Below, piece after piece: positions 14,899-43,811 of a stretch of 64,000 nucleotides of DNA. Both the position numbers and the translations under genes were made by a program. Position 1 is the stretch's first letter. Each line of letters starts with the position of its first letter. The DNA is from Deltaproteobacteria bacterium (lineage in GTDB: Bacteria; Desulfobacterota; Desulfuromonadia; Desulfuromonadales; BM103): assembly GCA_024279915.1 (NCBI GenBank), contig JAJRRB010000060.1:1-64000 (forward strand), given 5' to 3'. Below the pieces are notes generated by a model. The model saw only the letters and a list, made by a program, of their open reading frames with translations, was not told the DNA's origin and did no database searches.

Positions 14899-16356
14899 TC
14901 AACGGGAAATGGAATCGAGTCGGTAATGGTCGCGAATAAAGCGCAGGAGATGATTGACGCCCCGTAACGCTTCGCGAAGTTGTTTTTGCGCTTTATGCGG
15001 TAGCCGTTGTGGGTCAATGGCGTTTCCTGGTTTATTACCAGCAGCCAGATCGCTCAATTGACGTTGCAGTCGGAAGTTGACCAGTTGGCTGAAGGAATCG
15101 CAGAGCATTTCGCTGTTTTGAGGAGAGAGAACACCCATCTGTCCGAGTTTCTCAAGCTTGTCCCAGGTTGTCCCTTCATCGACATTGTTTTCCAGTGCAA
15201 GCAAGCTGGCCCCTTCCGTCAATGCAAAGATGCCTGATTTTTTTAAATCAACTTTGCCTCGGTTAGCTCCCCTGCGCTCTACTTTGATGCGGCCAAACAT
15301 TCCCAGAGGTGCCGGAAATCTGACGATATTCTTGGCGACATAAGGGAAAAAGAGCATATTCCTCTGGGTCGTCGCATAGATGAAGTCATGCAGCGTTTTT
15401 TCAAAAGAAATGTCACCATGAATTGTACGAAAATCCTGAAACATGCCGAAGTTGACCATGTGCTCTCCGGTGGGAACGGAGATCCATCGTTCAAGGAGCT
15501 GCCGCCATTCGGTTATGCTGTGTCGCCATTGTGGGTTGCTTGCCATCGTGTTGCCTGGGCAGCGTGGGATGCCGACAAACTCAAGTGCATCGATCAGTAT
15601 GTCTGCGAAACGAGCACAATCGTCTAACTCTGCGGGGGAAATGTCATCGGCGTAGACCATGGCGCTGTCTTGGTCGGTACGTAAAGTTTGCTCCTCACGC
15701 CCCTCACTGCCGAGTGCCAGGAAGGCCGCCTTGGCAGGAAGAGTGATGCCTTCAAGCTTCTCCATGAGAGTGATGATGCGTTGTGTGAAACCATTGTTGA
15801 AGTGGGCAATCAGGTGGACCAGACTTCTGGTGTCGGCTCCTGCGGTCATCGCACTTCTTACCATATCGATAATGCGGGCGTTGATCTCTTTGAGCTCATC
15901 AATCGATTCGGCAGCCTCCATCTCCTGAGTCAGGTAAAGGGGGCTGCGGGTTTGCTGGCTGAGAAGGTCAATGGCATTAATAACGCCAACCAGTTTCTGC
16001 TTCTCGTTGATAACGGCCAGATGATGAATGTTGTTCTTAGCCATTTTAAAAATGGCTTCAAAGACATAGGCCTGATGCCGAACGGTTATTACACCCGCAT
16101 GCATGATGTCACAAACTTTATGTCCTGCTAGGTTCTCACCTGCGGTAGCGATCAGGTCGCGTAAGTCGCGTACAGAGAGAATGCCAACGGGGTTCTCTTC
16201 TTCAGTAACCACAAGTCCGGCAATATTTTGATCGGACATCAGGCGGGCAGCTTTAATAACACTGATGTCAGGGGCACAAGTGATTGCGGGCGTACGGCAT
16301 ACACTCTCAATGTGTAAGAAGAAAAAACTCTCTTCGTTGAAGCGGCTGTTTGGCAT
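14899..16356 (-). CDS. CBS-pair / DUF294 putative nucleotidyltransferase
   Basis: A 485-residue cytoplasmic protein. Two CBS domains (about residues 15-135) are followed by a DUF294 nucleotidyltransferase-like domain with GSEGREEQTLRTDQDSAMVY, where the G-S and D-x-D residues are those of the nucleotidyltransferase fold, and a helical C-terminal domain. The ATG at 16356 has GGAG upstream; 45 extra in-frame codons look non-coding. CBS domains sense adenylates. Genes of this family are habitually next to DUF4212/SSS acetate-type symporters, as here, suggesting control of uptake. GlnD-like modification activity is inference. Confidence 0.82.
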   Translation of the reverse strand: MPNSRFNEESFFFLHIESVCRTPAITCAPDISVIKAARLMSDQNIAGLVVTEEENPVGILSVRDLRDLIATAGENLAGHKVCDIMHAGVITVRHQAYVFEAIFKMAKNNIHHLAVINEKQKLVGVINAIDLLSQQTRSPLYLTQEMEAAESIDELKEINARIIDMVRSAMTAGADTRSLVHLIAHFNNGFTQRIITLMEKLEGITLPAKAAFLALGSEGREEQTLRTDQDSAMVYADDISPAELDDCARFADILIDALEFVGIPRCPGNTMASNPQWRHSITEWRQLLERWISVPTGEHMVNFGMFQDFRTIHGDISFEKTLHDFIYATTQRNMLFFPYVAKNIVRFPAPLGMFGRIKVERRGANRGKVDLKKSGIFALTEGASLLALENNVDEGTTWDKLEKLGQMGVLSPQNSEMLCDSFSQLVNFRLQRQLSDLAAGNKPGNAIDPQRLPHKAQKQLREALRGVNHLLRFIRDHYRLDSISR

Positions 16357-16947
16357 AAAAACTCCGAAAATAAAACAGGTAAAATCTGCGCCATTGTCCA
16401 CGTTTTTGAGGTTTGATGCAACCGTTCGTTGTTGCCAGCAGGGCCAGTAAATATGGCAATGTTGTAAACAAAACGGCACATTCACTACCAAACGTGTGTT
16501 TTGCTGCTATACTTGTTATAAGTTGAAATAGACTGTTTGAAAGGTGCTGATTTTACGTGTCTTTGGATTGGTGTTACGCGAAAACGAAACAACGTTATAT
16601 TTTTCTGTTGACTCAGATGCGAGACTCAAGCTATCTTCTCCCTCAACCTCTCTATATTGGGGTTTTTAACGGCTAAAGAAAAAGAACAGTGGTTAAATTA
16701 CGAGTTATAAGGTCTTTAATAAAGTTTTTTACCGGTTTTTGGGGCCGACCAAAGTCCCTGATATCAAACGCAGTAACTGGATGATTAAAACTTTGTCTCT
16801 AAATCGCCGTTTCAGGGCCTTTGGGAGACCAAAACGCATCGGAGTTATTCCCAGTATCTTCCGGGCGAGTCAAGGAGGTGGTTAGGGAGCTGTAAGTTTG
16901 GCACTACTTAATTATAGTTTTTTTTACTAACCTGAAGGAGGTTATTC
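16357..16947. other. 590-bp divergent intergenic region
   Basis: Holds the promoters of the DUF294 gene (leftward) and the symporter operon (rightward). The part nearest the symporter genes is not obviously coding and ends in AAGGAGG for the DUF4212 gene. A TTGACT/TATCTT promoter is marked separately; I see no known riboswitch. Confidence 0.5.
16608..16637 (+). promoter_or_regulatory. Possible promoter of the symporter operon
   Basis: TTGACT (16608-16613) and TATCTT (16632-16637) with an 18-bp spacer, reading toward the symporter genes. The resulting leader would be about 300 nt. Confidence 0.3.
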
Positions 16948-17202
16948 ATGGACACAAGCGGAGAAGCATATTGGAAAGCAACACTGACGTTGATAGCCCA
17001 AGTACTGGCTGTCTGGTTTTTCGTCTCATTCGGTTGTGGCATCTTGTTCGCTGATGCTCTCAACAGCTTTAGCCTGGGTGGTTATCCACTGGGGTTCTGG
17101 TTTGCGCAGCAGGGATCGATGTATGTTTTCGTCATCCTCATCTTCGTCTATAAGCATCTTATGGGCAAACTCGACGAAAAATTTGATGTTCACGAAGAAT
17201 AA
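16948..17202 (+). CDS. DUF4212 small subunit of a sodium/solute symporter
   Basis: An 84-residue protein with two membrane helices (residues ~10-35 and ~50-72) and the sequence YPLGFWFAQQGSMYVFVILIFVY typical of DUF4212. AAGGAGG lies before the ATG. Members are always found directly upstream of an SSS-family symporter, here 12 bp away, and are thought to form its small subunit. Confidence 0.9.
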   Translation: MDTSGEAYWKATLTLIAQVLAVWFFVSFGCGILFADALNSFSLGGYPLGFWFAQQGSMYVFVILIFVYKHLMGKLDEKFDVHEE

Positions 17203-17214
17203 AGGAGCTATTAG

Positions 17215-19011
17215 ATGTCACTTCAAACTATGACCTATCTTGTTGTCGGCGCTACCTTTGCTTTATACATAGGTATCGCTATCTGGGCCCGCGCTGGTAG
17301 TACCAGTGAATTCTATGTTGCCGGTGGCGGCGTGCCTCCCGTCCTGAACGGTATGGCAACCGGTGCTGACTGGATGTCCGCAGCATCATTTATCTCGATG
17401 GCCGGCCTGATCGCCAATATGGGCTACGGCGGCGGTCTCTTCCTTATGGGTTGGACGGGTGGTTACGTTCTTCTGGCGATGCTGCTGGCACCTTACTTGC
17501 GTAAGTTTGGTAAGTTCACCGTGCCTCAGTTTGTCGGTGATCGTTATTATTCCAAGACTGCAAGTGTCGTGGCTGTAATGTGTCTGCTCGCCGCTTCCCT
17601 CACCTACATCATTGGTCAAATGACCGGTGTTGGTGTTGCATTCTCTCGTTTCCTGGGCGTTTCCAACTCAACAGGTGTATTTATCGGTATGGGTATTGTT
17701 TTCATGTACGCGGTTTTCGGCGGCATGAAAGGTATCACCTACACCCAGGTCGCTCAGTACTGCGTCCTGATCCTCGCATACACGATTCCTGCAATCTTTA
17801 TTTCAATGCAGCTGACCGGTAACCCTCTACCACAGCTTGGTCTGGGCGGCGGCTTTGTCGGTACAGACATGACACTGCTTGGTAAGCTTGATCAGGTCGT
17901 AATGGACCTCGGCTTCCCTCAGTACACCACGATGACTCGTATCAGCACGCTGAACATGTTCGTCTACACCATGTCACTGATGATCGGTACTGCTGGCCTG
18001 CCACACGTTATCATGCGTTTCTTTACGGTTCCCAAGGTTAAGGATGCACGCTCTTCCGCTGGTTGGGCACTCGTTTTCATCGCGATCCTCTACACCACGG
18101 CTCCTGGCGTTGCTGCTATGGCTCGCCTGAACCTGCATGCTTCTGTTAACACCGCTGTTATCTCTGGTGGCGATCTTTTCGCAGAATCTTCCAGTATCAA
18201 GTACGATGAGCGTCCTGACTGGATGAAGCGTTGGGAAGTTACTGGCCTGCTCAAGTTCGAAGACAAGAACGGCGACGGTCGTATCCAGTACTACAATGGT
18301 AAGAATCCTCCTGCTGCTGCTGTAGCTGCTGGCTGGAAAGGTAACGAGCTGTCAGTTAACCGTGACATCATGGTTCTTGCTAACCCGGAAGTTGCCAATC
18401 TGCCTAACTGGGTTATTGCTCTGGTTGCTGCTGGTGGTCTGGCTGCTGCACTTTCGACTGCTGCTGGTCTGCTTCTGGCGATCTCTTCGGCGATCTCTCA
18501 TGACCTTTTCAAGAACATCTTTATGCCTGACATGAGTGAGAAGAACGAGCTGATGACTGGTAAGATTGCCATGGCATGCTCCATTGTGGTCGCTGGTTAT
18601 CTCGGTCTCAATCCTCCGGACTTCGCAGCTGGTACCGTGGCAATCGCTTTCGGTCTCGCTGCTAGCTCGATCTTCCCTGCTCTGATGATGGGTATCTTCA
18701 ACAAGAAGATGAACAAAGAAGGTGCGATGGCAGGTATGTGCGCTGGTATCGGCGTCACCATGTTCTACGTCTTTGCCCATAAAGGGATCTTCTTCATCAA
18801 AGGAACCTCGTTCCTCGGCATGTTTGGTGGCAAGGCTAACTTCTGCATGGGTATTGAGCCGAATGCTTTCGGTGCAATCGGTGCCCTGGTTAACTTTGGT
18901 ACTGCCTATGTGGTCAGCAAGTTTACTCCTGCATGTCCTGATCACATTACTGCAATGGTCGAGAACGTACGTATCCCACGCGGATCCAAGGCCGTTGATG
19001 GTACTCATTAA
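17215..19011 (+). CDS. Sodium/solute symporter (acetate permease-like, SSS family)
   Basis: A 598-residue, roughly 13-helix transporter. Family marks include GADWMSAASFISMAG, the GQMTGVGVAFSRFLGV helix and the late GGLAAALSTAAGLLLAISSAISHD segment. A hydrophilic insert (about residues 320-390) is characteristic of the large VC_2705-type subgroup that pairs with DUF4212. Acetate or a similar monocarboxylate is the expected substrate, in line with an acetate oxidiser. Codon use is strongly biased and repeat-poor, suggesting high expression. A terminator follows at once. Confidence 0.88.
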   Translation: MSLQTMTYLVVGATFALYIGIAIWARAGSTSEFYVAGGGVPPVLNGMATGADWMSAASFISMAGLIANMGYGGGLFLMGWTGGYVLLAMLLAPYLRKFGKFTVPQFVGDRYYSKTASVVAVMCLLAASLTYIIGQMTGVGVAFSRFLGVSNSTGVFIGMGIVFMYAVFGGMKGITYTQVAQYCVLILAYTIPAIFISMQLTGNPLPQLGLGGGFVGTDMTLLGKLDQVVMDLGFPQYTTMTRISTLNMFVYTMSLMIGTAGLPHVIMRFFTVPKVKDARSSAGWALVFIAILYTTAPGVAAMARLNLHASVNTAVISGGDLFAESSSIKYDERPDWMKRWEVTGLLKFEDKNGDGRIQYYNGKNPPAAAVAAGWKGNELSVNRDIMVLANPEVANLPNWVIALVAAGGLAAALSTAAGLLLAISSAISHDLFKNIFMPDMSEKNELMTGKIAMACSIVVAGYLGLNPPDFAAGTVAIAFGLAASSIFPALMMGIFNKKMNKEGAMAGMCAGIGVTMFYVFAHKGIFFIKGTSFLGMFGGKANFCMGIEPNAFGAIGALVNFGTAYVVSKFTPACPDHITAMVENVRIPRGSKAVDGTH

Positions 19012-23590: not shown

Positions 23591-24316
23591 TTAACCGCCA
23601 AGGTAGGCCTTTTTAACCTCTGGATTCCCCAACAATTCCTCACTGGTCCCCTCGGCAACAATATTGCCAGTATCAAGAACATAACCTCGGTGGGCTAAGT
23701 GGAGGGCCAGGTTTGCATTTTGCTCAACGAGAAGAATGGTCATTCCTTCTTCATTCAACTGCTTGAGCTTACGGAACAACTCGTACTTTAACACTGGCGC
23801 CAGGCCCATCGAGGGTTCATCGAGGAGCAGAAACTTACAGCCGGTCATCAGTGCACGCCCGACCGCCAGCATCTGCTGTTCACCACCAGAGAGTGATTCA
23901 CTCCGCTGTTTACGACGTTCCTTTAAGCGCGGAAATAGATCAAAAATCCGCTCATATTCTGCATCCAGGTCGGCATCCTTCTCGCGGGCATAAGTCGCTA
24001 TCTTTAAATTTTCCATAACCGTCAGGTTACCGAAAATCCGCCGTCCTTCAGGAGAGAGAGCCAGGTGCAGTTCTTTGACCACATCGCTTGGCTTGGTCTT
24101 GAGGATCGACTCACCCTGAAACTTGATATCCCCGGCAATAACACGCGGAGCTTCAGGCGGAGGCAAGCGGGTAATGGTGTGAAGACTGGTGGTCTTTCCG
24201 GCACCGTTGGCACCGATCAGGGTCACGATTTCGCCCTCATTCACATGAAAGCTGATCCCGTGCAAAGCCTGGATATTACCGTATTTAACTTCGAGATTTT
24301 CGACTTGCAGAAGCAT
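23591..24316 (-). CDS. livF: Branched-chain amino-acid ABC transporter ATPase LivF
   Basis: A 241-residue ATPase with Walker A GANGAGKTT, signature LSGGEQQ, Walker B FLLLDEPSMGLAP and switch His replaced in the VEQN context typical of LivF. It energises uptake through LivHM together with LivG. Its start touches the LivG stop by one base. It is last in livJHMGF. Confidence 0.93.
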   Translation of the reverse strand: MLLQVENLEVKYGNIQALHGISFHVNEGEIVTLIGANGAGKTTSLHTITRLPPPEAPRVIAGDIKFQGESILKTKPSDVVKELHLALSPEGRRIFGNLTVMENLKIATYAREKDADLDAEYERIFDLFPRLKERRKQRSESLSGGEQQMLAVGRALMTGCKFLLLDEPSMGLAPVLKYELFRKLKQLNEEGMTILLVEQNANLALHLAHRGYVLDTGNIVAEGTSEELLGNPEVKKAYLGG

Positions 24317-25116
24317 CAGATATTATCATCTCCCAGGTAGGCGGTGATGACCGCGGGATGGTTGCGGATCTGCTCCGGGTTGCCATCGGTTATGGTTTCA
24401 CCGAAGTCGATCACCTTGATCTGCGTGGCTAGTTCCATCATAACGTCCATGTGGTGCTCAATCATCCAAATGGTCACGTCAAAGGTATCGTGGATCCAGC
24501 GTATCAGCCGAATCAGATCTTTCGCGTCGGCCGAGTTGAGCCCGGCGGCTGGTTCGTCGAGCAGCAGCAGTTTCGGGTGGCTCGATAGCGCGCGGGCTAT
24601 CTCCAGCTTGCGCTGGGTGCCGTAGGGCAGGTTCTTCGGTAGCTCTTCAGCGTAGCGTTTCAGATCGAAGACGTCGAGCAGTTCTTCGGCCTCTTTGGTG
24701 ATCTGCTCCTCTCTCGCCTGATAGCGTTTGCTGCGGGCAATGGCATGGAAAAAACCGTAGCCGAGTTGATTGTGCTGTGCGACGCGGATATTATCCAGCA
24801 CCGTCATGTCGTTCCAGAGGCGGATGTTTTGAAAGGTGCGGGCCACACCCAGGGCGGTGACCTTGTGTGGTCTGAGTTCGGCGGTAGGGTTGCCGTCGAC
24901 AAGAATCTGCCCCTCGGTCGGCTGATAGAAGCCACTGACCAGGTTAAAGACCGTCGTTTTGCCAGCGCCGTTGGGACCGATCAGTCCGCAGAGCTCTCCC
25001 GGCATCAGTGTGACATTGAAGTCTTTGAGCGCTGTCAGACCGCCGAAGCGCTGGGTCAAGCCGCGTACTTCAAGGACTGGCGTCGGTTCCGTTTGTATTT
25101 GTGTCTGTGCCATCAT
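24316..25116 (-). CDS. livG: Branched-chain amino-acid ABC transporter ATPase LivG
   Basis: A 266-residue ATPase with Walker A GPNGAGKTT, a signature region reading NLPYGTQRKLEIARAL, Walker B LLLLDEPAAGLN and MIEHHMDVMMEL, as in LivG. Two ATGs in a row (25116, 25113) allow either start. It overlaps livM by 4 bp. Confidence 0.93.
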   Translation of the reverse strand: MMAQTQIQTEPTPVLEVRGLTQRFGGLTALKDFNVTLMPGELCGLIGPNGAGKTTVFNLVSGFYQPTEGQILVDGNPTAELRPHKVTALGVARTFQNIRLWNDMTVLDNIRVAQHNQLGYGFFHAIARSKRYQAREEQITKEAEELLDVFDLKRYAEELPKNLPYGTQRKLEIARALSSHPKLLLLDEPAAGLNSADAKDLIRLIRWIHDTFDVTIWMIEHHMDVMMELATQIKVIDFGETITDGNPEQIRNHPAVITAYLGDDNI

Positions 25117-26183
25117 TTAAACCTGTAAAATTTCTTCAGTTTGGGGAAGACATCTCCCAATTCCCGATTGCCCATGATTCCTTCGGAGCGGAACTGCATC
25201 ACAATGATCAGTAGCAGCGGGATCATAACCCACTTGATGACGCCTGCTGAAGGTTCCCAGTCGGGAAACATAAAGGTGATCGGTGAGAGCAGGCCATCGA
25301 CGATCGCTTGGGAGCGGAGCACTTCTAGCAAGCCGGTGAAAATGATGGCGGAAATGACGGCGCCGGACAGAGAGCCCATGCCGCCGAGATAGACCATTAC
25401 CAGAGCCTCAGTCGATTTGAGGATATTGAAGGACTGCGGGTTCACGTAGCCGATGATGTGTGCGTAAAGACCGCCCGCACACCCCGCCAGGCCGGCGGCG
25501 AGCATGAAGTTGATGATCTTGATCTTGTTGGTGTTGACGCTCATGATCTCGGCCGCCACTTCGTCCTGACAGATGGCGTTGACGCCCTTGCCATAGGTGG
25601 AGGAGATGAAGCGTCGGATTACCCAGACCGAAAAGACGGTGAAGTTGATTACCCAGAAAAGCATCCAGGGGCCATCAAAGATATCGACCATTGCCCAGAC
25701 GGTACCCTTCATCCCCTGAAAACCGCGCGAGCCGCCGACGAAGTCCATGTTCTCTATGGCCGAGATGATCATGTAGTTGACGGCGATGGAAATGATAGCC
25801 AGGTAGTCGTCACGGGTTTTGAAGGATGGAACCGAAATCAGCAGCGAGGATACAGCGGCCACCGCTCCACCGATCAGCAGGATGATGGGAAAAACGAACA
25901 GTACTGAGGCGGCCGGCAGCAGCGGATCGCCGAACTTAGTGCCGAAACATAACACCGACAGGACCGACGAAATATAGGCACCAATGCACATGAAAGCCGC
26001 GTGGCCACAGGTGAATTCGCCCATATTGCCGTTGACCAGGTTCAAACTGGTGGACATCATGATGTTGATGCCGATGGTCATGACGACAATTTGGATGTAG
26101 CCATCAATGATGCGGAAATGAGCGGCGAACAGTAGCCCGATAGCGAAGACGACCAGCAGGATGTTGAGAGAGTATTTTTTCAT
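25113..26183 (-). CDS. livM: Branched-chain amino-acid ABC permease LivM
   Basis: A 356-residue permease of about nine helices, with NLVNGNMGEFTCGHAAFMCIGAY near the N-terminus and the GGMGSLSGAV cytoplasmic loop that docks on the ATPases. The ATG at 26183 with GGGAG upstream is preferred to a TTG five codons earlier. Confidence 0.92.
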   Translation of the reverse strand: MKKYSLNILLVVFAIGLLFAAHFRIIDGYIQIVVMTIGINIMMSTSLNLVNGNMGEFTCGHAAFMCIGAYISSVLSVLCFGTKFGDPLLPAASVLFVFPIILLIGGAVAAVSSLLISVPSFKTRDDYLAIISIAVNYMIISAIENMDFVGGSRGFQGMKGTVWAMVDIFDGPWMLFWVINFTVFSVWVIRRFISSTYGKGVNAICQDEVAAEIMSVNTNKIKIINFMLAAGLAGCAGGLYAHIIGYVNPQSFNILKSTEALVMVYLGGMGSLSGAVISAIIFTGLLEVLRSQAIVDGLLSPITFMFPDWEPSAGVIKWVMIPLLLIIVMQFRSEGIMGNRELGDVFPKLKKFYRFK

Positions 26184-26199
26184 ATCTTTATCTCCCAAC

Positions 26200-27111
26200 C
26201 TATATCTTGGTCGACTGAGGAATGCCGAACAGCCCGGAGGGCTTCATCCACAGAATCAGTAGCAGGATGGTGAAGGCGAACAGGTCTCGGTAGGTCGAGG
26301 GGAAGACCGTGACTACGCCCACCTCGATGAAGCCGAGCAGGAAGCCGCCGACAAACGCCCCCTTGATGTCACCGATGCCGCCAACCACTGCGGCGATAAC
26401 AGCCTTCCAGCCGATCAGCATCCCCATAAACGGCTCCAGGACTGGGTAGCTCATGGCGAACAGCAGCCCGGCCAGACCGGCAAACCCTGAGCCGAGGACA
26501 AAGGTGACGACGATGATGCTGTCAATGGGGATACCCATCAGCGGGATTGCGAATTTATCATAAGAGATGGCCCGCATCGCCATACCGACCCGCGTACGGG
26601 TCACCACCCACTGCAGAAACAGGAAGACCAGAATGGCGGTCACGATGACCATAACTTTGAGGTTGGTCATGGTGACGCCGCCAAAGTGCCAGATCTGTTT
26701 TTCTATCAACTCTGGGAACTTCAAGCGGCTGGCGCCGAGCAAGGCCAGGTTCGAGTACTCAAGGACCAGGCCGGCCATCAGCGCAGTGATGACCACGTAG
26801 AGCCGGTGTGCGCCTTTGCGCCGCAGGGGCCGGTAGGCGATCCGCTCCAGGGTCACGCCGACTAGCGAGGTCAGAACCATGGTCAGGGGCACAGTGATGA
26901 CGAAGGCCATCATTGGGGAGAACCCGACGATTGGGCCGATAAGGAAACTGGCCACGAAAAAGGAGATGTAGGCTCCGACCATGAAGATATCGCCATGGGC
27001 GAAGTTGATCAGACGCAGCACCCCGTAAACCAAGGTGTAGCCTAGAGCAATGAGAGCGTAAAAGCTCCCCCATTGCAGGGCATTCAGGATATTCTGAATA
27101 ATGAAATCCAC
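26200..27111 (-). CDS. livH: Branched-chain amino-acid ABC permease LivH
   Basis: A 303-residue permease with YALIALGYTLVYGVLRLINFAHGDIFM at the N-terminus and VVGGIGDIKGAFVGG as docking loop. The start is GTG at 27111, with AAGGAAG at suitable distance; this matches the family's usual N-terminus. Confidence 0.92.
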   Translation of the reverse strand: MDFIIQNILNALQWGSFYALIALGYTLVYGVLRLINFAHGDIFMVGAYISFFVASFLIGPIVGFSPMMAFVITVPLTMVLTSLVGVTLERIAYRPLRRKGAHRLYVVITALMAGLVLEYSNLALLGASRLKFPELIEKQIWHFGGVTMTNLKVMVIVTAILVFLFLQWVVTRTRVGMAMRAISYDKFAIPLMGIPIDSIIVVTFVLGSGFAGLAGLLFAMSYPVLEPFMGMLIGWKAVIAAVVGGIGDIKGAFVGGFLLGFIEVGVVTVFPSTYRDLFAFTILLLILWMKPSGLFGIPQSTKI

Positions 27112-27176
27112 AGAAATTCTTCCTTAAAAACGTTGGAGTTGCATGGTCGCCGGTGGCAACTTAATTTAGGCACAGC

Positions 27177-27208
27177 AAAGCGGGGATCCAAAGACCCCCG
27201 CTTTTTCG
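27177..27208 (-). terminator. Hairpin between livJ and livH
   Basis: AAAGCGGGG/CCCCGCTTT stem followed on the minus strand by sequence with few T residues. It probably protects the livJ message end and lowers expression of the membrane genes, as is common after binding-protein genes. Confidence 0.6.
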
Positions 27209-27227
27209 AGCTATGCTACATGGAGTG

Positions 27228-28387
27228 TTATGGGCAAACTGATTCCTCGAAGACAAAGGTTCCTTCGTCGGAGACTTTAACTATAACAGCGCACTTGATC
27301 GGGTCGCCCTGCTCATTAAACTTGGACGAGCCGGGGACGCCGTCAAAAGACTTGATGGCAGCCAGACCATCGCGGATGGCGGTGCGCATCTTGCGTGGGT
27401 TGGAATCAACCATGCCGGCGTTCTTGATCCCTTCCACCATCAGACCGATGGAATCCCAGGTCAGGGCAGCGTAGTCAGCTGGTTCTGCACCGTATTTTGC
27501 CTTGTATCGGTCGATGACAACCTTGGTCGCACCCGTGGCACCGGCTGCAGCGTAATGGGTTGAGAAGTACTGTCCGTAGCACTGCTCGCCACAGAGTTTG
27601 ACCAGGTCTGGGGTGCCCCAGGCATCGGAACCCATGAACGGGCCCTTGTAACCGAGATCACGCGCCTGCGGTATGATCAGGGCGACCTGGTTGTAGTTTT
27701 CCGGTACAAAGATGAAGTCAGGTTTGGCGGCAATGATGGTGGTCAGCTGGGCGGAGAAATCCTGGTCCTTGGTGCCATTCGACTCGTAGGCTACGACCGG
27801 GCCGAGACCCTTGGCTTCCCATGCAGATTTAAATACTTCTGCCAAACCGACAGAATAATCGTTAGCGACGTCGAAGAGTACCGCTGCGGTCTTGGCACCG
27901 AACTTTTTGGCTGCAAAGTCGGCTACTACTGGCCCCTGGAAGGGGTCGAGGAAGGCAGCGCGGAAAACCCAGGGACGGTCCAGGGTGGTATTAGGATTGG
28001 TCGACCAGGGGCTGATCATCGGTGTACGGTTTTCGTTAGCGGTACCGCCGCCAGGAACTGCTTGCTTGGAGGAGTTGGGGCCGATAATCGCCACGACCTC
28101 TTCCTGCTCGATCAGTTTGAGGGCAGCGTTGACTGCCGAGTCAGCTTTAGACTCGTTGTCCATGTAGATGAACTCAAGCATGTACTTCTTGCCGCCAACC
28201 TCGAGGCCACCGGCGCCGTTGATATCTGCGAGATACATTTCAGCGGCGTTTTGGAGCCTTCCCCAACTTCCGGGATGTCTCCGGTCATCGGGATATTGAA
28301 GCCGCTCTTGATGGTGTCTGCAGCGAGTGCTGGAGTCGCCATCAGGGCGACCAGGGACAATGCAACCAGAAATTTCAATGTCTTCAT
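27228..28387 (-). CDS. livJ: Branched-chain amino-acid binding protein LivJ, frameshifted
   Basis: A periplasmic Leu/Ile/Val-type binding protein. Start ATG at 28387 (GGAGGAG upstream) opens a signal peptide, MKTLKFLVALSLVALMATPALA, and the mature ADTIKSGFNIPMTGDIPEVGEGSK. The rest, NAAEMYLADINGAGG onward, continues in another frame. Adding one base to the run of four A at 28249-28252 restores a normal reading frame of about 386 residues. The whole liv operon is otherwise intact, so this is either a sequencing error or a very recent lesion. Confidence 0.85.
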
Positions 28388-28578
28388 TTGTCTCCTCCGT
28401 GGGGTTGTTATGAACAATAGACGCAATGTGCCACGCTATGTGGCACATCGACGGTAAATAATACCATTTGCTCTATAAAACCAGACATTTAAGTACAACA
28501 GCCAGAGGTGTATTTGTCAAGCGACTTTCCCCTCTTTTTAACTATTTGTTTTTTCTCAGTATTTGATTATTACAACCT

Positions 28579-30747
28579 TTAGTATTTTATTTTCACAAAG
28601 GGCGACTTAAACGAAGCACTGAGAGCCTCTTCGAGAGTATGTATCCCCTGGGCTTCCAGTAACGGGATAAGTCTCAGTAGAATTTCGGCAGTGACCAGTG
28701 CGTCTCCTAAGGCCGTATGTCGCCCGACGATCGTGATATTAAAGCGTTCGGCAATGTCATCCAGAGAATGACCTTCCTGATTCGGATGCACTATGGAAGA
28801 AAGCAGTAGTGTGTCGAGGACCGGATTGTCGAAGTGCAGCCCGATGGCATCCTCTTTCAGTTGCAGAAAACGCATGTCGAACGCGGCATTGTGGGCAACC
28901 AGTACAGAGTCGGCTACAAAGGCATGAAAACTTGGTAGAACCTGGGTAATCACCGGCTGTGATGTTAACAGCTCGGGGTCGATACCGTGAATTTCGACAG
29001 AAGATTTTGGTACCGATCTTTGCGGGTTGACCAGTTGGTCGATGCATTCATTGTGCAGCAATCGGTTGTTTACAATCCGCACCGCACCGAGTTGAATGAT
29101 TTCGTCTCCCTCGGAGGGGTTGAGCCCGGTGGTCTCGGTGTCGAAGGCCACATAGGTCAGTTTACGCAGAGGCTCCTTGCCAAGGGCCTCCTGTCCGAGT
29201 TGATGAAAGAGGTCGAACTCATAGGAGACGGGACGAGGTGCAACTGAAGAATGTAAATCTGCCGGTTCCTCGTCCAATGCGGTTGGCAGGGTTATTCTGA
29301 TGCCATCACAGAAAGCTCCCTCGGTCTCTGTAATCGTGATGTCGCCACCGTGTTTGGTGATAATGGTTTGTGGAGAGTCTGTTGTGCCGTCGCTATCCTT
29401 GAAGAGTGGGGTTTGTTGCCAGTCACGCAGAGTCTGGCTGGTGACGCTATGATCTGCCCAGTTTAAAGCGAGTGTGGCCAATGGCCCGTCGTCGCTACCA
29501 ATCTGTAGCAGAATCGCTGCGATGCCATATTCGACTTTCAGGAACCCAGCCAGGTTGGTAACCAACTGTACGACGGCATAGCTGTCTATCTTCAGCCAAA
29601 TACTTTTATTCGTACTTGCTTCAGTCTGTATGGCAAAACGTTTGTCGAGACTATTCGTGATCAGTTCCATGAAGGTGTCAGCCAGCACATTTTCGCGATT
29701 TCCATAGGCGAGACGATGTTCGCTGTAGAGATTTCTGGCCAACGCCAGATGCTCTTCAAGTTCGCTGGTGATCTGAGCGGCGGATCGGAGATGCTGATTA
29801 CAGGCGTCTTGTCTGGTGGTTTGCATCTCGCAGATGAAGTCGACCCTTTGGTGCATTTTGCCCAGCGCATCCTGGACAGCATCGACCATGCCTTGCAGCA
29901 ACTTATCACGTTCGCTGTCGGCATCTATTTCACCAGTGATATCTTCCAGAGAGAGAACGAAACCGGAAATAACTCGGGCTTCCTCATCGTTACTGGTGAC
30001 CGGCGCCATGTTGACACGAATAAAGCGCGTACCACACAGCTTGGTTGTCAAGCCGAGTGCAGGTTTCACCTGGTCCTTGGCAAACGCGTGGTTCATCACC
30101 TCCAGGGCATGAACCAGAGGGTCTCGCTCCAGAACACCGAATATCGACCGGCCCAGGCCGATGGTTCCACTTTCCTCTTGATCTCCCTCCGTTGGTTGCA
30201 GCATCTCCCGTCCCAGGTGGTTGTAAAGCAGGATTTTGCCATCCTTGTTGCAGACCACTACCCCGCAGGGCAGCTCTGACATCAGGGCTGCAAACCGGTT
30301 GCGCTCCTCCTTGAGGGCCATGTTGGATTGGCGAACTTTGCCATCAACTTCACTTTGCAGTGCCTGGAAGGCATCGGCAGATTCGTTGATAACCTTAGCC
30401 AGCATCGCTAGTTCGCGAGCACCTTCGGTGGTGATGCGATAGTCCGGGTTGGCGGCGGTGATCAGGCGGGTCTGCTCAGCCATGCGCAGGACTGGTATGA
30501 TGTAGTAGCGAAAGAGCAGGCTGATCATGGTGCAAATGAAGGCGACCAGAACGATTGAGCCGATAAAAGGAAAGGGGACCAGTTTATTGAAGAGTTTTGC
30601 AATAATAGCCTGATCATCGGGTGCAAGATTCAAGTAAGCCCCGGCAAAACTACCGAAGATGACGGTAAATATGACAGCGATAATACCGATTAGAAAAATC
30701 CAGTATTTGACTGCAGGTGACAGGTTGTCTGTAAAGCGATTCAGCAA
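28579..30747 (-). CDS. Membrane PAS sensor fused to a DEDDh 3'-5' exonuclease
   Basis: A 722-residue fusion. Two membrane helices (14-37, 60-83) are followed by a HAMP-like stretch, a PAS domain (about 150-270) and a kinase-like helical and ATPase-like region (about 280-495) lacking clear phospho-acceptor His and G boxes. Last is a DnaQ-type exonuclease (530-700) with FDTETTG (D536, E538), HNAAFD (D624) and HTALGD (H677, D682), so the four metal ligands and the His are present. Start TTG at 30747 with GGAG upstream. Exonuclease genes of this kind often accompany DUF294 and acetate symporters; here those are 12 kb away. Signal and target unknown. Confidence 0.8.
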   Translation of the reverse strand: MLNRFTDNLSPAVKYWIFLIGIIAVIFTVIFGSFAGAYLNLAPDDQAIIAKLFNKLVPFPFIGSIVLVAFICTMISLLFRYYIIPVLRMAEQTRLITAANPDYRITTEGARELAMLAKVINESADAFQALQSEVDGKVRQSNMALKEERNRFAALMSELPCGVVVCNKDGKILLYNHLGREMLQPTEGDQEESGTIGLGRSIFGVLERDPLVHALEVMNHAFAKDQVKPALGLTTKLCGTRFIRVNMAPVTSNDEEARVISGFVLSLEDITGEIDADSERDKLLQGMVDAVQDALGKMHQRVDFICEMQTTRQDACNQHLRSAAQITSELEEHLALARNLYSEHRLAYGNRENVLADTFMELITNSLDKRFAIQTEASTNKSIWLKIDSYAVVQLVTNLAGFLKVEYGIAAILLQIGSDDGPLATLALNWADHSVTSQTLRDWQQTPLFKDSDGTTDSPQTIITKHGGDITITETEGAFCDGIRITLPTALDEEPADLHSSVAPRPVSYEFDLFHQLGQEALGKEPLRKLTYVAFDTETTGLNPSEGDEIIQLGAVRIVNNRLLHNECIDQLVNPQRSVPKSSVEIHGIDPELLTSQPVITQVLPSFHAFVADSVLVAHNAAFDMRFLQLKEDAIGLHFDNPVLDTLLLSSIVHPNQEGHSLDDIAERFNITIVGRHTALGDALVTAEILLRLIPLLEAQGIHTLEEALSASFKSPFVKIKY

Positions 30748-30816: not shown

Positions 30817-31839
30817 TCAACTTGGTGATCCGTTTTTTGTTACTGTTTTCTGCAGGATAGCGATCAGTTCTGCAGTTTCCTGGTCTGGATTGTAACGATC
30901 CGGGTCTGGGCAGGAAATCTGTTGGCGTCTCTCCGGCTTAAGCAGTTGCAGGGCATACCGAGTGAACTCCGACTTATTGCTATACAGCAGGCCGTTGCTA
31001 TTGTGTCTGACCACTGCGGCATTACCGGGAATCTGCCGGGCGAGAATTGGCAGGCCTATGGTTGCCGCCTCCAGCAAGGCGTTGGCGAGACCTTCCGCCT
31101 GAGAGTTATTGAGAATAACATCAGCACCACGCATGGCGCTTGCCATGGCTTCTGGTGCGATGGAGCCAAGATAGCTGGACCATGGTCTTTTCTCAATGGC
31201 GTCAAGGACACGTTTAGCGTAACCCTCGTCGAGGATGGGGCCACAAAAGGCAAGATGGAAGATCGAACTTTCCATCGCCACTTGGTCGAACATCACCAGC
31301 AGTTCCAGAACCCCTTTGACCGGTCGCAAGCCGGCCGGGCAGAGAAAGAGTGTTTGTGCCTTATTAAGAGAATGTACGCCTCGTAGATCGTAGCTCGCTG
31401 TGCCCAATACGATTCCAGGCGTTAACTCGTCCAAGTTCGTTGTTAATTCCGGATGGACGGCCTTGAGCTCGGCAACGATTAATGGGTTCTGCAGAATGAC
31501 GAACGCGGCATGATGCATGATCGTGAGGATGATCTCAACCTGCTCAGGGTCGTCCAGCCCATGATTGACATCGGTGCCGGTGAGAAGTACCACGTAGGGA
31601 ATCTTCAGATCGCTTGCTGCTGCCAGCCATGGTTTCCCGGACCGGTATGCGTGTAGCAGAATCGTTACATCGGGAGCGAAGTCAAGCAATTGCTGCCTGA
31701 AAACGCCGTCTGTTTGCAGCTTGGCATCATGCAGAGCGACCTGATGGCCATGCTTTTTCAGGCCATGCTGAAACCTGTGGGCAGTCACCCAGTTGCCGCT
31801 GATGCGGTCCTGTCTAGGAATGACGATCAGGATGCGCAT
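30817..31839 (-). CDS. Family 4-type glycosyltransferase
   Basis: A 340-residue GT-B glycosyltransferase. The N-terminal MRILIVIPRQD and the C-terminal donor-site region ILNNSQAEGLANALLEAATIGLPILARQIPGNAAVV, with the E-G-x-x-x-x-x-x-E pattern, mark the GT4/GT1 type. The start ATG lies 13 bp inside the end of the deacetylase gene, so both are translated from one message. The sugar and acceptor are unknown; the pairing suggests a glycolipid or polysaccharide product. Confidence 0.78.
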   Translation of the reverse strand: MRILIVIPRQDRISGNWVTAHRFQHGLKKHGHQVALHDAKLQTDGVFRQQLLDFAPDVTILLHAYRSGKPWLAAASDLKIPYVVLLTGTDVNHGLDDPEQVEIILTIMHHAAFVILQNPLIVAELKAVHPELTTNLDELTPGIVLGTASYDLRGVHSLNKAQTLFLCPAGLRPVKGVLELLVMFDQVAMESSIFHLAFCGPILDEGYAKRVLDAIEKRPWSSYLGSIAPEAMASAMRGADVILNNSQAEGLANALLEAATIGLPILARQIPGNAAVVRHNSNGLLYSNKSEFTRYALQLLKPERRQQISCPDPDRYNPDQETAELIAILQKTVTKNGSPS

Positions 31840-32657
31840 GGCAGGTTTCCAAAAGTGCACAGGCGAATATTACGTCGTGCAATGACTTCTTTCGCCTCTA
31901 CTGAGAGAAGAGCCTGCAATTCTATCTGACGCTGTGGTCCGTCAAATGATCCTCCCTGCTCGAAAGGGTAGCCCGGATGAGTCATCAGTTCCCAGAAGCC
32001 TTCACTGAGACTCTCGAGAAGGTTGCAGAGGCGGTTGGTGTCCAGACGGTTCAAGAATGGCATACCCCAGAGGCCGTCTGGAGTTTTGAATCCGGCGTCG
32101 ATAATTGTTGTATGCGCATTCCGACCGAGGCGACGGTAGAGGGTCAACTCCTCTCCCAGGGATCCGTTCAGGTCTTGTTCGACTGGTTCTGTAGGCAAGG
32201 TGGTACGCATAGCACAAATATCGTATTCCAGGGCCAGCTCAGTTATCATGGTTGTCAGGCAAGGGAAAAGCTGACAGTGCTGATGGCTGTCGAGGTGGCC
32301 GGGTTGCAGGCCGTTGTCAAAAAGACGTTCAATTTGGGCCGCAAGCTCATTACGAATAGCAGTGCGATCGCAAGCTCCGGCAGCAAGGCATTGACGTAGC
32401 TTTTGTTTGCCCGGCAGCAGACCATCATCGGTCAAGCCTTTGATTTGCCCCGTTAAGGTTGAACCGTCTGCCAGGTTCAGGTGCACGCCGACCGGAATGC
32501 TCGAATCCTTGACCTGTTCGACAGCCGTAATAAATGATGGTCCATTAGCAAGCAGGGAAGTACTGGTGACAATGCCATGCTTGAAAGCCTCCAGAATTCC
32601 CCGGTCACGATCTGTGTTGCTACCGAGATCGTCAGCATTAATAATTAATGAAATCAT
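31827..32657 (-). CDS. ChbG/HpnK-family (YdjC) deacetylase
   Basis: A 276-residue YdjC-fold protein. Metal and catalytic residues are visible as INADDLG near the N-terminus, VGVHLNL, HLDSHQH and THPGYP. The family removes acetyl groups from N-acetylated sugars; HpnK members act on hopanoid head groups. Next to a glycosyltransferase it probably forms a transfer-then-deacetylate pair. It is divergent from the MFS gene. Confidence 0.82.
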   Translation of the reverse strand: MISLIINADDLGSNTDRDRGILEAFKHGIVTSTSLLANGPSFITAVEQVKDSSIPVGVHLNLADGSTLTGQIKGLTDDGLLPGKQKLRQCLAAGACDRTAIRNELAAQIERLFDNGLQPGHLDSHQHCQLFPCLTTMITELALEYDICAMRTTLPTEPVEQDLNGSLGEELTLYRRLGRNAHTTIIDAGFKTPDGLWGMPFLNRLDTNRLCNLLESLSEGFWELMTHPGYPFEQGGSFDGPQRQIELQALLSVEAKEVIARRNIRLCTFGNLPCAS

Positions 32658-37544: not shown

Positions 37545-39023
37545 TCAGTACGCGAAAGGCTCCAGGCGCACCTTGGGCAGCAGGCTCGGCGAGTCGGTCA
37601 AATATTCGTCGACACAGCGGGCGACTTCGCGTCCCTCGCTGATTGCCCAGACCACCAGGCTCTGGCCCCGTCGGCAGTCGCCGGCAGCAAACACGCCATC
37701 GACCGAGCTCATGCGAGTCTTGGAGTCAGTCTTGATGTTGGAACGCAGGTCCGATTCGCAACCGCACTGTTCGAGCAGTTCCGAGCGTGGTCCAAGATAA
37801 CCCATAGCCAGAAGCACAAGGTCGCATTTCCAGATCTGTTCACTTCCGGCGACTCTCTCAGGGCGGCCGTCTACCCATTCGACCTTGACGGTTTCGAGGC
37901 CGGAGACTGTTTTGTCTCTGCCTAGAAAGCGGGTGGTCATGATCTCGTAAAAGACATCTCCACCCATAACTTGCATCTCCTCAACCGAGGTACTGACACG
38001 CATGATACGTGACCATTGTGGCCAGGGGTTGTCGACATCGCGTGCTCCCGGTGGTCGATCGAGAAGCTCAAAGTTGACGACACTGGTCGCTCCCTGACGC
38101 ATTGATGTGCCGATACAGTCCGAACCGGTGTCACCACCACCAATGACAATAACTTTTTTGCCTTTGGCACTAATCGCCTGCTTTTTAGGGTGCAGAGCAG
38201 AGACATCGCTGTCTCCCCAGTTGGCGCGATTCTGCTGTGGTAAAAACTCCATCGCAAAGTGAATACCGCCCAGATCTCGTCCTTCAACAGGAAGGTCACG
38301 CGGTTCTTCGGCGCCTGTGGCGATGACAACCGCATCGAAGGATGACTTGATTTCGGCAAAGCTCACATCCTTGCTGACTTCGCAGGAATATCGGAATTCA
38401 ACCCCCTCTGCAACAAGCTGGTCGATGCGACGTTGCACCTTCTCTTTGCGCAACTTGTAATGAGGAATGCCGTACATCACAAGGCCACCGGCGCGGTCGG
38501 CCTTTTCAATGACGGTGACGCGATGCCCGGCGCGGTTAAGTTGCTGGGCACAGGCCAGACCAGCAGGGCCACTGCCGATTACGGCAACGGTTTTGTCGCT
38601 GCGCAGGGTTGGCGGCTGAGGGACAATCCAGCCTTCCTCAAAACCCTTGTCAACGATTGACACTTCGTGCAGCTTGATTGTTACCGCCGGTTCATTGATG
38701 CCGAGGACGCATGAGGTTTCGCACGGCGCCGGACAGACCAGGCCGGTAAACTCGGGGAAGTTATTGGTCGCGTGCAGGGCGCGCAGGGCCTGCTTCCACT
38801 TGCCGCGGTGGACCAGATCGTTCCATTCCGGGATCAGATTGCCCAACGGACAACCACTCATGCAGAAAGGGACACCGCAGTCCATGCAACGAGAGGCCTG
38901 GGTCTTGACCTTCTCCTCACTGGGGTAGTTATAGTGTTCGTCATGATGTTGCAGACGCGCATTGACCCTTTGCAAGGTCTTGTCGCGACGGCCATGTTTT
39001 ATAAATCCGCGTGGATCACCCAT
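37545..39023 (-). CDS. gltD: Glutamate synthase small subunit
   Basis: A 492-residue protein. N-terminal cysteines ([17 protein letters not shown]; later CPAPCETSC) bind two 4Fe-4S clusters. The FAD site is [13 protein letters not shown] and the NADPH site is GGGDTGSD. It passes electrons from NAD(P)H to the large subunit in making glutamate from glutamine and 2-oxoglutarate. GGAG precedes the ATG; the start overlaps the end of gltB by 8 bp. Confidence 0.95.
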
Positions 39024-41970: not shown

Positions 41971-41979
41971 GACGACCTC

Positions 41980-42945
41980 TTAACGCAGAGGATCAATCGG
42001 CGGATTGGTGATCTGGGCGAAGAGCTGACTGAAGTACCAGTAGAGCAGTTTGCTGTGCTTCGACAGGACCGCAGCAGGGGTGTCGGTGCCCATGGAACCA
42101 ACCGGCTCCTGGCCATAGACTGCCATTGGCGCCATGATCGTCCGCATCTCTTCCAGGGTATAACCAAAGCTGCCCTGTTTGCGTCGTAGTTTCTTGAGGC
42201 CAGATGCTCGCTTGGTGGCCGGGGCAGGCAGGTCATCAAGTTGGATCAGATGCTCTCGTACCCAGGAAGCATAGGGTTGGGCTGCTGCCAGCTCTCCTTT
42301 GATTTCGTGATCTTCTTTGAATTCACCGGTTTCAACATCGACCAGAATCATTTTTCCGGGGGCCAGACGCTCCTTGCGCAGGATTTTCTCAGGGGCAATG
42401 TCCAGCACTCCTGCTTCTGAGGCGTAAATGATCTCATCGTCGCTGGTGATCCAGTAGCGGGCTGGACGCAGACCGTTCCGGTCGAGGATCGCGACAACTT
42501 GCTTGCCGTCACAGGCGACAATGTTGGCCGGGCCATCCCAGGGCTCCATCATGGTCGCATGGTATTCGAAAAAACCTTTGACCTCGGGACGCAAGTGGGC
42601 TTTGGAGGCCCAGGCTTCGGGGATCATCATTGCCAGTGAGTGGGTCAGACTGCGACCGGTGGCAAGCAGAAGTTCGAGCGCATTATCGAGACAGGCGGTG
42701 TCAGAGCTGCCTTCGATGATAATCGGATCCAGGTCCCTGATTGCATCCCCCAACTCGGGAGACTCAAGCAGAGCTGTCCGGGCGCGCATACGGTTGATGT
42801 TGCCGCGCAGGGTGTTGATCTCACCATTGTGGGCTACATAGCGAAAAGGTTGGGCCAGATCCCAGGTCGGGAAGGTGTTGGTGCTGTAGCGCTGGTGTAC
42901 AAAGGCAATCGCGCTGACGAGACGTTCATCATCCAGTTCCGGGAA
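41980..42945 (-). CDS. gltB: Glutamate synthase large subunit, middle part
   Basis: Residues from PELDDERLVSAIAFVHQRYS through GEINTLRGNINRMRARTALL to NPPIDPLR. It contains the glutamine-binding segment of the amidotransferase domain and the start of the central domain. There is no start codon at its true beginning: the frame is joined to the N-terminal part by a one-base shift at 42944-42947. The first ATG in frame is at 42789. It ends in the TAA that precedes the C-terminal part. Confidence 0.8.
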   Translation of the reverse strand, partial: FPELDDERLVSAIAFVHQRYSTNTFPTWDLAQPFRYVAHNGEINTLRGNINRMRARTALLESPELGDAIRDLDPIIIEGSSDTACLDNALELLLATGRSLTHSLAMMIPEAWASKAHLRPEVKGFFEYHATMMEPWDGPANIVACDGKQVVAILDRNGLRPARYWITSDDEIIYASEAGVLDIAPEKILRKERLAPGKMILVDVETGEFKEDHEIKGELAAAQPYASWVREHLIQLDDLPAPATKRASGLKKLRRKQGSFGYTLEEMRTIMAPMAVYGQEPVGSMGTDTPAAVLSKHSKLLYWYFSQLFAQITNPPIDPLR

Positions 42946-43580
42946 AAGGTGCCCAGCTGTTCAGAGAGCAGCATGCCTTTGTAGAGGATGGTGCGACTGG
43001 AGAGTGAACAGACATAGAACATTTCATTACCAGCAAGCTTGTTATTGCTGATCGTTCTTTCGGCGCGTTTGCGGGCCAGGTAGAGCATCAGTTCAAGCTT
43101 GTGAACTTCGACTTCGTCTCGACCGACAAAGATCTGCATCACATATGGCTCAACAGAACGGGCGTTGCGACCGATGGTGCTGCTATCCGTTTTGATCTCG
43201 CGCCAACCGAGAACACTGCAACCGACGCCAGTCAATTCTCGATCCAAAGCAACGATGCACGCTTCACGGCAGCTTCTTTCCTGAGGTAAAAATACGATGC
43301 CAGCGCCGAATTCACCTGCCGTTGGCAGGTTAAAATCACAGACCTCGCGATAGTAGGCATCAGGCATCTGGATCATCAAGCCTGCACCATCACCGTCGAA
43401 AGGATCGGCACCCACAGCACCACGATGAGTCAGGTTGCAGAGGATTTCGATGCCACGTTTGACGATACTATGACTTTTGCGGCCTTTGATGTTGGCTATG
43501 AAACCGACGCCACAGTTATCGTGTTCGTTGGCTGGATCGTAGAGGCCCTGGGCGGGCGGCATACCTATATGTGTTGTCAT
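42834..43580 (-). CDS. gltB: Glutamate synthase large subunit, N-terminal part (frameshifted)
   Basis: The N-terminal glutaminase domain. After a propeptide of about 22 residues the nucleophile Cys follows in NEHDN-CGVGFIANIKG, as in all GltB. Normal sequence runs to LLSEQLGTF; then a run of four T (coding strand) should be five, and the frame drifts into a false tail ending near 42834. ATG at 43580 has AAGGACC upstream. With gltD behind it the operon is gltB-gltD. Confidence 0.82.
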   Translation of the reverse strand: MTTHIGMPPAQGLYDPANEHDNCGVGFIANIKGRKSHSIVKRGIEILCNLTHRGAVGADPFDGDGAGLMIQMPDAYYREVCDFNLPTAGEFGAGIVFLPQERSCREACIVALDRELTGVGCSVLGWREIKTDSSTIGRNARSVEPYVMQIFVGRDEVEVHKLELMLYLARKRAERTISNNKLAGNEMFYVCSLSSRTILYKGMLLSEQLGTFSRNWMMNVSSARLPLYTSATAPTPSRPGIWPNLFAM

Positions 43581-43811
43581 GGTTGGTCCTTGTCGTTGGC
43601 AACGGAAAAGCACGGTACATTGAATCAATAGCTCAATTAAGATGTGCTCAATTATAATGGGCAATTGCGAACTATAAAGTCTACAACGAACTTTGTCCAA
43701 AATAAAACGAGTTTTGGCAGGCAGAGGTGCTCTGGAGGTCTATTCCGAATTGTAACTTATAGAGTTTATAGTAGGCTTTCGCAATAGACGGTGCAAAGAT
43801 ACGAACATTCA

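Follow-up and report, generated by a model that had tools for sequence, protein, structure and literature searches.

Membrane sensors are known to act through kinases, phosphatases, chemotaxis signals and nucleotide cyclases or phosphodiesterases. Two described systems bear on the locus analysed below. In Caulobacter, the pseudo-histidine kinase DivL reads the phosphorylated form of DivK (PMC4211667). In Pseudomonas putida, the RNase_T protein PP_0353 and the CBS-domain protein PP_0354 belong to the MxtR/ErdR (CrbS/CrbR) regulon; the PP_0353 gene follows that of PP_0354, apparently within one operon, its loss impairs growth on pyruvate, with no such defect on 20 mM acetate, and its authors propose a role in mRNA degradation (PMC9927547). 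The PP_0354 promoter is bound by ErdR (PMC8402216), and the genes PA3232-PA3235 are up about 16-fold during growth on propionate, while PA3233-PA3235 are down 2-fold after propionate is added to cells (PMC9765439). A further member of the CrbS/R regulon, Pflu5625, combines a cAMP-binding domain with CBS and nucleotidyltransferase domains; nucleotidylation of proteins is its predicted activity, and a mutant showed no phenotype (PMC5715377), and the label DUF294 that we apply to it is ours, not that paper's. Here, we describe a gene in a 64,000-nucleotide stretch of DNA (the window; positions 1 to 64,000 of contig JAJRRB010000060.1, assembly GCA_024279915.1) from a Deltaproteobacteria bacterium of the order Desulfuromonadales, whose product joins a predicted membrane sensor and a dead histidine-kinase module to a DEDDh-type 3'-5' exonuclease.

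The gene runs on the minus strand from 30747 to 28579 (722 codons), with a GGAG motif 6 nt upstream of its TTG start codon. The first-pass annotation, made from the letters of the window and a list of open reading frames (ORFs), had given these coordinates correctly and left the strand unstated. In the same register, the plus strand of the interval is interrupted by stops, and the longest plus-strand ORF inside it has 187 residues. Pfam recognizes RNase_T at residues 533-690 (E 6.7e-36), a PAS domain (PF00989) at 151-264 slightly below the cut-off (E 2.2e-4) and, weakly, HAMP at 85-127 (E 0.094); neither HATPase nor HisKA is matched in the window protein. An AlphaFold2 model based on an 82-row alignment (pLDDT 82.4, pTM 0.55) opens with helices at 11-39 and 58-99 and a long third one at 111-157. 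The PAS fold comes next, then a hairpin of two helices (271-307/313-346) and an alpha/beta domain at 352-489; residues 496-512, modelled with low confidence, link this domain to the exonuclease at 520-713. The two membrane helices and the PAS domain claimed in the first-pass annotation thus reappear in the model, the membrane placement of both helices being predicted from hydrophobicity and architecture. Among relatives, HAMP is significant in locus L112 (E 2.7e-7), and PF00989 is found in 15 of 30 family members at E 0.01. The fusion itself is genuine and well past chance, given co-linear full-length copies in 34 of the 58 genomes of the order, the window's own included; one further copy, cut at a contig end, brings the count to 35.

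All five DEDDh ligands (D536, E538, D624, H677 and D682), which had been reported as present in the window protein, are kept in 99 of 99 aligned rows and in seven of seven additional homologues. The alignment comprises the window protein, 70 rows from a GTDB contig scan and 28 rows from relatives; it leaves out ten scan ORFs shorter than 640 residues and the partial L017, and it counts three proteins twice (L031/L005, L032/L007 and L033/L009). By fold, the domain matches PolC (Z 25.3, 1.7 A over 191 residues, 29% identity) and E. coli DnaQ (Z 21.8), and the matching DEDDh folds also include RNase T and ERI-type RNases. NCBIfam groups the C-terminal part with PolC-, DnaQ- and DinG-type exonucleases. 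Between the window protein and close relatives, the ratio of non-synonymous to synonymous substitution rates (dN/dS) of this domain is 0.035-0.09 in six of seven comparisons, the seventh being saturated. Because the ligands are intact in every row, dN/dS is low and the fold is that of PolC and DnaQ, the domain is very likely to be catalytically active. It shares its fold and all five ligands with DnaQ and PolC (PF00929), to whose structures it is 28-34% identical; whereas those are parts of a polymerase, the domain described here would be the output of a membrane sensor.

Between the PAS domain and the exonuclease lies a histidine-kinase DHp-CA fold without catalytic residues, a pseudokinase under moderate constraint. 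Modelled alone, this middle region resembles an integrative WalK model (E 3.4e-10 in a structure search) and the PrrB ATP-binding domain (Z 15.0, 2.6 A over 130 residues), and a 77-row profile of it retrieves histidine kinases of the Protein Data Bank from sequence alone at E 3e-7 to 9e-7. In a HMMER alignment to the YycG/WalK chain, E stands opposite the phospho-acceptor His and W opposite the Asp of the G1 box; the Asn of the N box and the glycines of the G2 box are absent. Across the 82 rows, the phospho-acceptor column holds E in 45 and D in 28 (73 in all), His in none and a gap in one, while Trp430, in the G1 Asp column, is invariant. That no row has the phospho-acceptor His and that an invariant Trp replaces the ATP-binding Asp is what makes the region a pseudokinase. 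Six more distant homologues do not retain the Trp, and they likewise lack the G1 Asp and the phospho-acceptor His. At E 0.01, Pfam finds HATPase_c in none of 30 members and HisKA in one. The dN/dS of the CA part is 0.13-0.31 in six of seven comparisons, that of the hairpin 0.08-0.28 in all seven. Compared with sensor kinases of the WalK/VicK type, the protein has the same order and fold, with two membrane helices, a HAMP-like stretch, PAS and DHp-CA, but it has lost the catalytic boxes and gained a C-terminal exonuclease. The description of a kinase-like region without its catalytic boxes has therefore held up, and the degenerate HATPase that was to be looked for there is present as a kinase CA fold; an intact kinase in this region is ruled out by the missing Pfam HATPase and the lost boxes.

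Members of the family occur in the window's phylum, in Alpha-, Beta- and Gammaproteobacteria and, judging by the titles of metagenome-assembled genomes, in a few other groups. A sample of 148 genomes of the phylum yielded matches at E 1e-40 or better in 7, among them the window's own genome. For the neighbourhood counts below, we used as loci the best 80 of 440 confirmed relatives from the GTDB contig scan, a set that leans to the window's relatives, holds three duplicates of genomes obtained otherwise and includes several loci shortened by contig ends; ORFs of relatives were called mechanically, and some start sites are wrong. Copies are found in Rhodobacter capsulatus DSM 1710, Azonexus hydrophilus and a Pseudomonas strain, among others. 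In a tree of 82 sequences, copies from the window's order fall into a single supported group (24 rows, SH-aLRT 100), which also includes one metagenome-assembled row labelled Myxococcota. Beta- plus most Gammaproteobacteria form another group and Alphaproteobacteria a further one, with some class labels scattered.

The most constant neighbour of the exonuclease family is a receiver gene, a partner that the first-pass annotation had overlooked. It lies immediately upstream in 55 of the 75 loci with enough upstream sequence, adjacency meaning that the receiver match ends no more than 360 bp from the first matched exonuclease residue. Its stop-to-stop frame is shorter than 200 residues in 46 of these 55 loci, and the receiver is therefore stand-alone there; in 36 of the 55, a kinase core is encoded on the same strand no more than 5 kb away. 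The 20 loci lacking the receiver comprise eight of the window's kind (L031-L034, L038, L062, L067 and L089) and 12 others. In five loci of the phylum sample from outside the order, chosen blind to their neighbours, a receiver is upstream in all five, although at L139, where the exonuclease start is unclear, it ends 810 bp before the first matched residue (query residue 82); a histidine kinase adjoins in four. The kinase upstream of the receiver often has a transporter-like, SLC5-type sensor part: SLC5-type kinases occur in 37 of the 80 loci by a bit-score rule and in 36 by a stricter recount that places the N-terminal part within 5 kb. The SLC5 label rests on similarity, the sensor part of Azonexus locus L049 matching its own SSS neighbour in a direct BLAST comparison at E 4e-7; Pfam SSF matches the N-terminal part of L128 (4.1e-6), a protein of the window's own genome, and not that of L049, the two parts being about 52% identical. 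As a side observation, made by eye, a conserved protein of some 190 residues with one membrane helix is encoded between DUF294 and receiver in Alphaproteobacteria (L091, L103, L107 and L110), at a distance of about 350-900 bp on the upstream side of the exonuclease.

A second set of neighbours bears on organic acids. The L049 cluster reads, all on one strand, acetate-CoA ligase, a small protein, an SLC5-type histidine kinase, the receiver and the PAS exonuclease, followed by a cNMP/CBS/DUF294 gene, a short exonuclease-like protein, an SSS symporter and a DUF4212-like protein. With Azonexus queries and flanks of up to 10 kb, DUF294 is found near 53 of the 80 loci, SSS near 50, DUF4212 near 29 and acetyl-CoA synthetase-like genes near 22, the SSS and synthetase counts taking in distant family members; with the window's own proteins as queries, the figures are 54 for DUF294, 47 for SSS and 30 for DUF4212. 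Comparison genes are found less often (metB 4, cysK 2, gltD 2, and the common ABC ATPases LivF 13 and LivG 12). In the window's own order, exonuclease, DUF294 and SSS are adjacent in L111, and L112 has DUF4212, SSS, a 911-residue PAS exonuclease, an SLC5-type GAF kinase and DUF294 in a row, with a receiver immediately upstream of the exonuclease. DUF294 was found nearby in only one of the five phylum-sample loci. Short exonucleases of other kinds also occur beside such genes. In two more genomes of the order, a DUF294 gene is followed directly by a short gene for a stand-alone DEDDh exonuclease (L132 6560-9172, L133 6498-9085), an independent form of the exonuclease-DUF294 pairing, and a different short DEDDh-type gene lies beside an acyl-CoA synthetase-like gene of about 622 residues at L134 (9800-10519) and L136 (7234-7938). 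The short protein of L049 (14010-14672) resembles the short exonucleases; it has no Pfam match, on which ground we dropped it as a second active nuclease, and by eye it has lost the DxE motif.

The first-pass annotation had proposed that the exonuclease, DUF294 and the symporter form one control of acetate uptake, families of this kind being encoded near acetate symporters and DUF294 proteins. Across the family, the association with SSS symporters and DUF294 is real; the window does not show it, the genes in question (14899-19011) lying 10-12 kb away behind metB, cysK and the entire Liv ABC transporter operon (Table 1), a gene order that rules out an operon with the exonuclease. The two loci are 14-20 kb apart in G001, G002 and G006 of the same genus, a spacing that may be plain synteny. 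Co-occurrence across genomes, which was to be the check, gives a mixed answer and decides little. Strong DUF294 matches occur in 35 of 35 genomes with the exonuclease vs 19 of 23 without it (Fisher p 0.02), and DUF4212 in 34 of 35 vs 18 of 23 (Fisher p 0.03). Neither test corrects for phylogeny, and the genomes that lack DUF294 or DUF4212 include several from the same families. Since DUF294-family matches are found in 57 of the 58 genomes of the order and DUF4212 in 52, with or without the exonuclease (35), presence and absence within the order is nearly uninformative as evidence for one system. The liv genes adjoin the exonuclease also in L119 and L124. The window's livK (27228-28448) is, by eye, apparently frameshifted, with its signal peptide (ORF 28112-28426) and mature protein (27228-28448) in different frames; elsewhere in the window, at 39016-43700, an apparent glutamate synthase large subunit is spread over three successive ORFs, as by small indels or assembly errors.

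Table 1. Domains of the exonuclease fusion gene and the genes around it, in window coordinates.
Feature	Position	Strand	Remarks
Exonuclease fusion gene	28579..30747	-	Membrane PAS/pseudo-histidine-kinase/DEDDh exonuclease, 722 aa, TTG start
First membrane helix (predicted), residues 11-39	30631..30717	-	AlphaFold2 helix; hydrophobic by eye in aligned relatives
Second membrane helix (predicted), about residues 60-82, then HAMP-like stretch	30502..30570	-	AlphaFold2 helix 58-99
PAS domain, residues 151-270	29938..30297	-	PF00989 (E 2.2e-4) and AlphaFold2 fold
Pseudo-DHp helical hairpin, residues 271-346	29710..29937	-	Phospho-acceptor His replaced; Asp289 in the window protein
Pseudo-CA (HATPase-like) domain, residues 352-489	29281..29694	-	N-box Asn lost, G1-box Asp replaced by Trp430, G2 glycines lost
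DEDDh 3'-5' exonuclease domain, residues 520-713	28609..29190	-	Ligands D536 E538 D624 H677 D682
Glycosyltransferase gene	30817..31860	-	Same strand, 69 bp upstream of the exonuclease gene; same order in L124
YdjC-like gene	31827..32657	-	Overlaps the glycosyltransferase gene
LivK-H-M-G-F type ABC transporter genes	23591..28448	-	Directly downstream; livK by Pfam, others named by eye
CBS-DUF294 putative nucleotidyltransferase	14899..16491	-	About 12 kb from the exonuclease gene
DUF4212 small subunit and SSS symporter	16948..19011	+	About 10 kb from the exonuclease gene

What, then, might an exonuclease on a dead membrane kinase do? The best explanation, to which we give about even credence, is a membrane-anchored, signal-gated 3'-5' exonuclease. 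The two predicted membrane helices and the PAS domain would feed the dead DHp-CA module, to which the exonuclease appears to be flexibly linked. A histidine kinase would phosphorylate the stand-alone receiver, which, judging from gene order and fold, may bind the dead kinase module in the way that DivK~P binds DivL; together with a PAS ligand, the docked receiver would then switch the exonuclease at the membrane. We place the steps in this direction, from kinase to receiver to pseudokinase to exonuclease, because of the Caulobacter precedent. More weakly, in organic-acid clusters the exonuclease might oppose the DUF294 enzyme or trim transcripts for the uptake or activation of short-chain acids, a link suggested by the neighbours and by the Pseudomonas data. 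Candidate substrates are a nucleotidylated protein, a small oligonucleotide and RNA.

The family resembles DivL in having PAS with a dead DHp-CA module and, by gene order only, a candidate receiver partner, adjacent in the 55 of 75 loci elsewhere; it differs in that the excerpted account of DivL mentions no nuclease (PMC4211667) and in that no receiver lies beside the window's gene. PP_0353/PP_0354 offer an RNase_T exonuclease together with a CBS-domain gene in an acetate/pyruvate regulon, but the excerpts mention no membrane sensor or pseudokinase for PP_0353 (PMC9927547, PMC8402216), and the corresponding pair is not adjacent in the window. Each domain is already known; in the open-licence literature of PMC we found no description of a PAS/HAMP/pseudokinase-DEDDh fusion or of such an exonuclease joined to a dead kinase with a receiver as partner, an absence that is weak evidence. 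The pseudokinase fold of Pan3 and the histidine-kinase fold are unrelated. The eukaryotic Pan2-Pan3 deadenylase, in which a pseudokinase likewise acts with an exonuclease, is an analogy only, its parts being separate proteins (PMC4158885).

Several observations count against a signal-gated exonuclease switched by a cognate receiver. Nine of the 55 receiver frames are longer, exceeding 1,000 residues in L060 and L077, and these may be fused to a kinase; 19 of the 55 receiver loci, mostly Alphaproteobacteria, have no kinase core within 5 kb. Within the window's order, neighbourhoods vary between families, some having purC- and selD-like genes (by eye) or unrelated neighbours beside the exonuclease. 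Of the loci of the order whose surroundings were read, L112 is the only one with a stand-alone receiver next to the gene; a kinase-regulator pair lies about 0.6-1.2 kb upstream in L119 and L123, with other genes in between, and a separate pair 3.8-6.1 kb off in L031-L033. The window's own genome has 39 receiver matches, the best-scoring 45% identical, and no clear orthologue of the cognate receiver among them. PP_0353, finally, is a separate protein, so its phenotype, the one test of a role in acetate or pyruvate use that we came across, is at most suggestive for a fusion. Since the receiver is absent from the locus in the window's lineage, the signal there probably enters through the PAS domain or through a partner encoded elsewhere. 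An SLC5-type histidine kinase is ruled out as the source of input in the window's own genome, where the SLC5-type protein, L128, carries a SpoIIE phosphatase domain, not a kinase. This gene (G000:C21, 1186-5402) encodes an SLC5-type sensor-GAF-SpoIIE fusion followed by STAS and RsbW-like genes, and sensor parts similar to it are fused to a histidine kinase in other genomes.

Four other accounts have to be weighed against the gated exonuclease. In one, which we hold to be unlikely, DUF294 throttles the uptake of short-chain acids, either by attaching a nucleotide to a protein or by producing a small oligonucleotide, and the DEDDh enzyme takes the nucleotide or oligonucleotide away again at a rate tuned by the membrane sensor. 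The presence of DUF294 within 10 kb in 53 of 80 loci, the separate short exonucleases directly beside DUF294 in L132 and L133, the position of PP_0353 downstream of PP_0354 (PMC9927547) and the predicted nucleotidylation by Pflu5625 of the CrbS/R regulon (PMC5715377) all fit such a pair of opposing enzymes. It sits poorly with the 19 of 23 genomes of the order that have DUF294 and no exonuclease, with the short neighbour in L049, which lacks a Pfam match and, by eye, the DxE motif, and with the four of five phylum-sample loci near which no DUF294 was found.

A membrane RNase that degrades specific mRNAs on a signal, those of transporter, TCA or acid-activation genes, is likewise improbable in our estimate. 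It would accord with the mRNA degradation proposed for PP_0353 by its authors (PMC9927547) and with the presence of RNase T and ERI-type RNases among DEDDh folds, but by sequence and fold the nearest relatives are the DNA polymerase exonucleases PolC and DnaQ, and Pfam finds no RNA-binding domain in the window protein. The same PolC/DnaQ likeness, together with the varied neighbours in the window's order, could point to a membrane-tethered DNA maintenance enzyme with incidental neighbours; this we consider very unlikely, as a receiver upstream in 55 of 75 loci and clusters with DUF294 and SSS across several classes are hard to call incidental. An ordinary active sensor kinase with a fused nuclease, as the DHp-CA fold taken by itself would allow, is already contradicted and barely credible: none of the 82 rows has the acceptor His, the Asp of G1, the Asn of the N box and the glycines of G2 are gone, and at E 0.01 Pfam recovers HATPase_c from no member of the 30 and HisKA from one.

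Finally, we would like to place the signal-gated exonuclease into the context of bacterial signalling. Tentatively, and with more doubt than confidence, the family may represent a further two-component output, in which a phosphorylated stand-alone receiver, read by a dead membrane histidine kinase, switches the attached 3'-5' exonuclease; an environmental signal would thereby be turned into the cleavage of nucleotides or nucleic acids at the membrane, and in short-chain-acid clusters this cleavage might undo the work of the DUF294 nucleotidyltransferase. A conserved family with a DEDDh exonuclease as the output of a sensor would add a mode of signalling to those known for membrane sensors, and it would give a handle on why an exonuclease and a CBS/nucleotidyltransferase-type protein sit in the acetate/pyruvate regulon of Pseudomonas.

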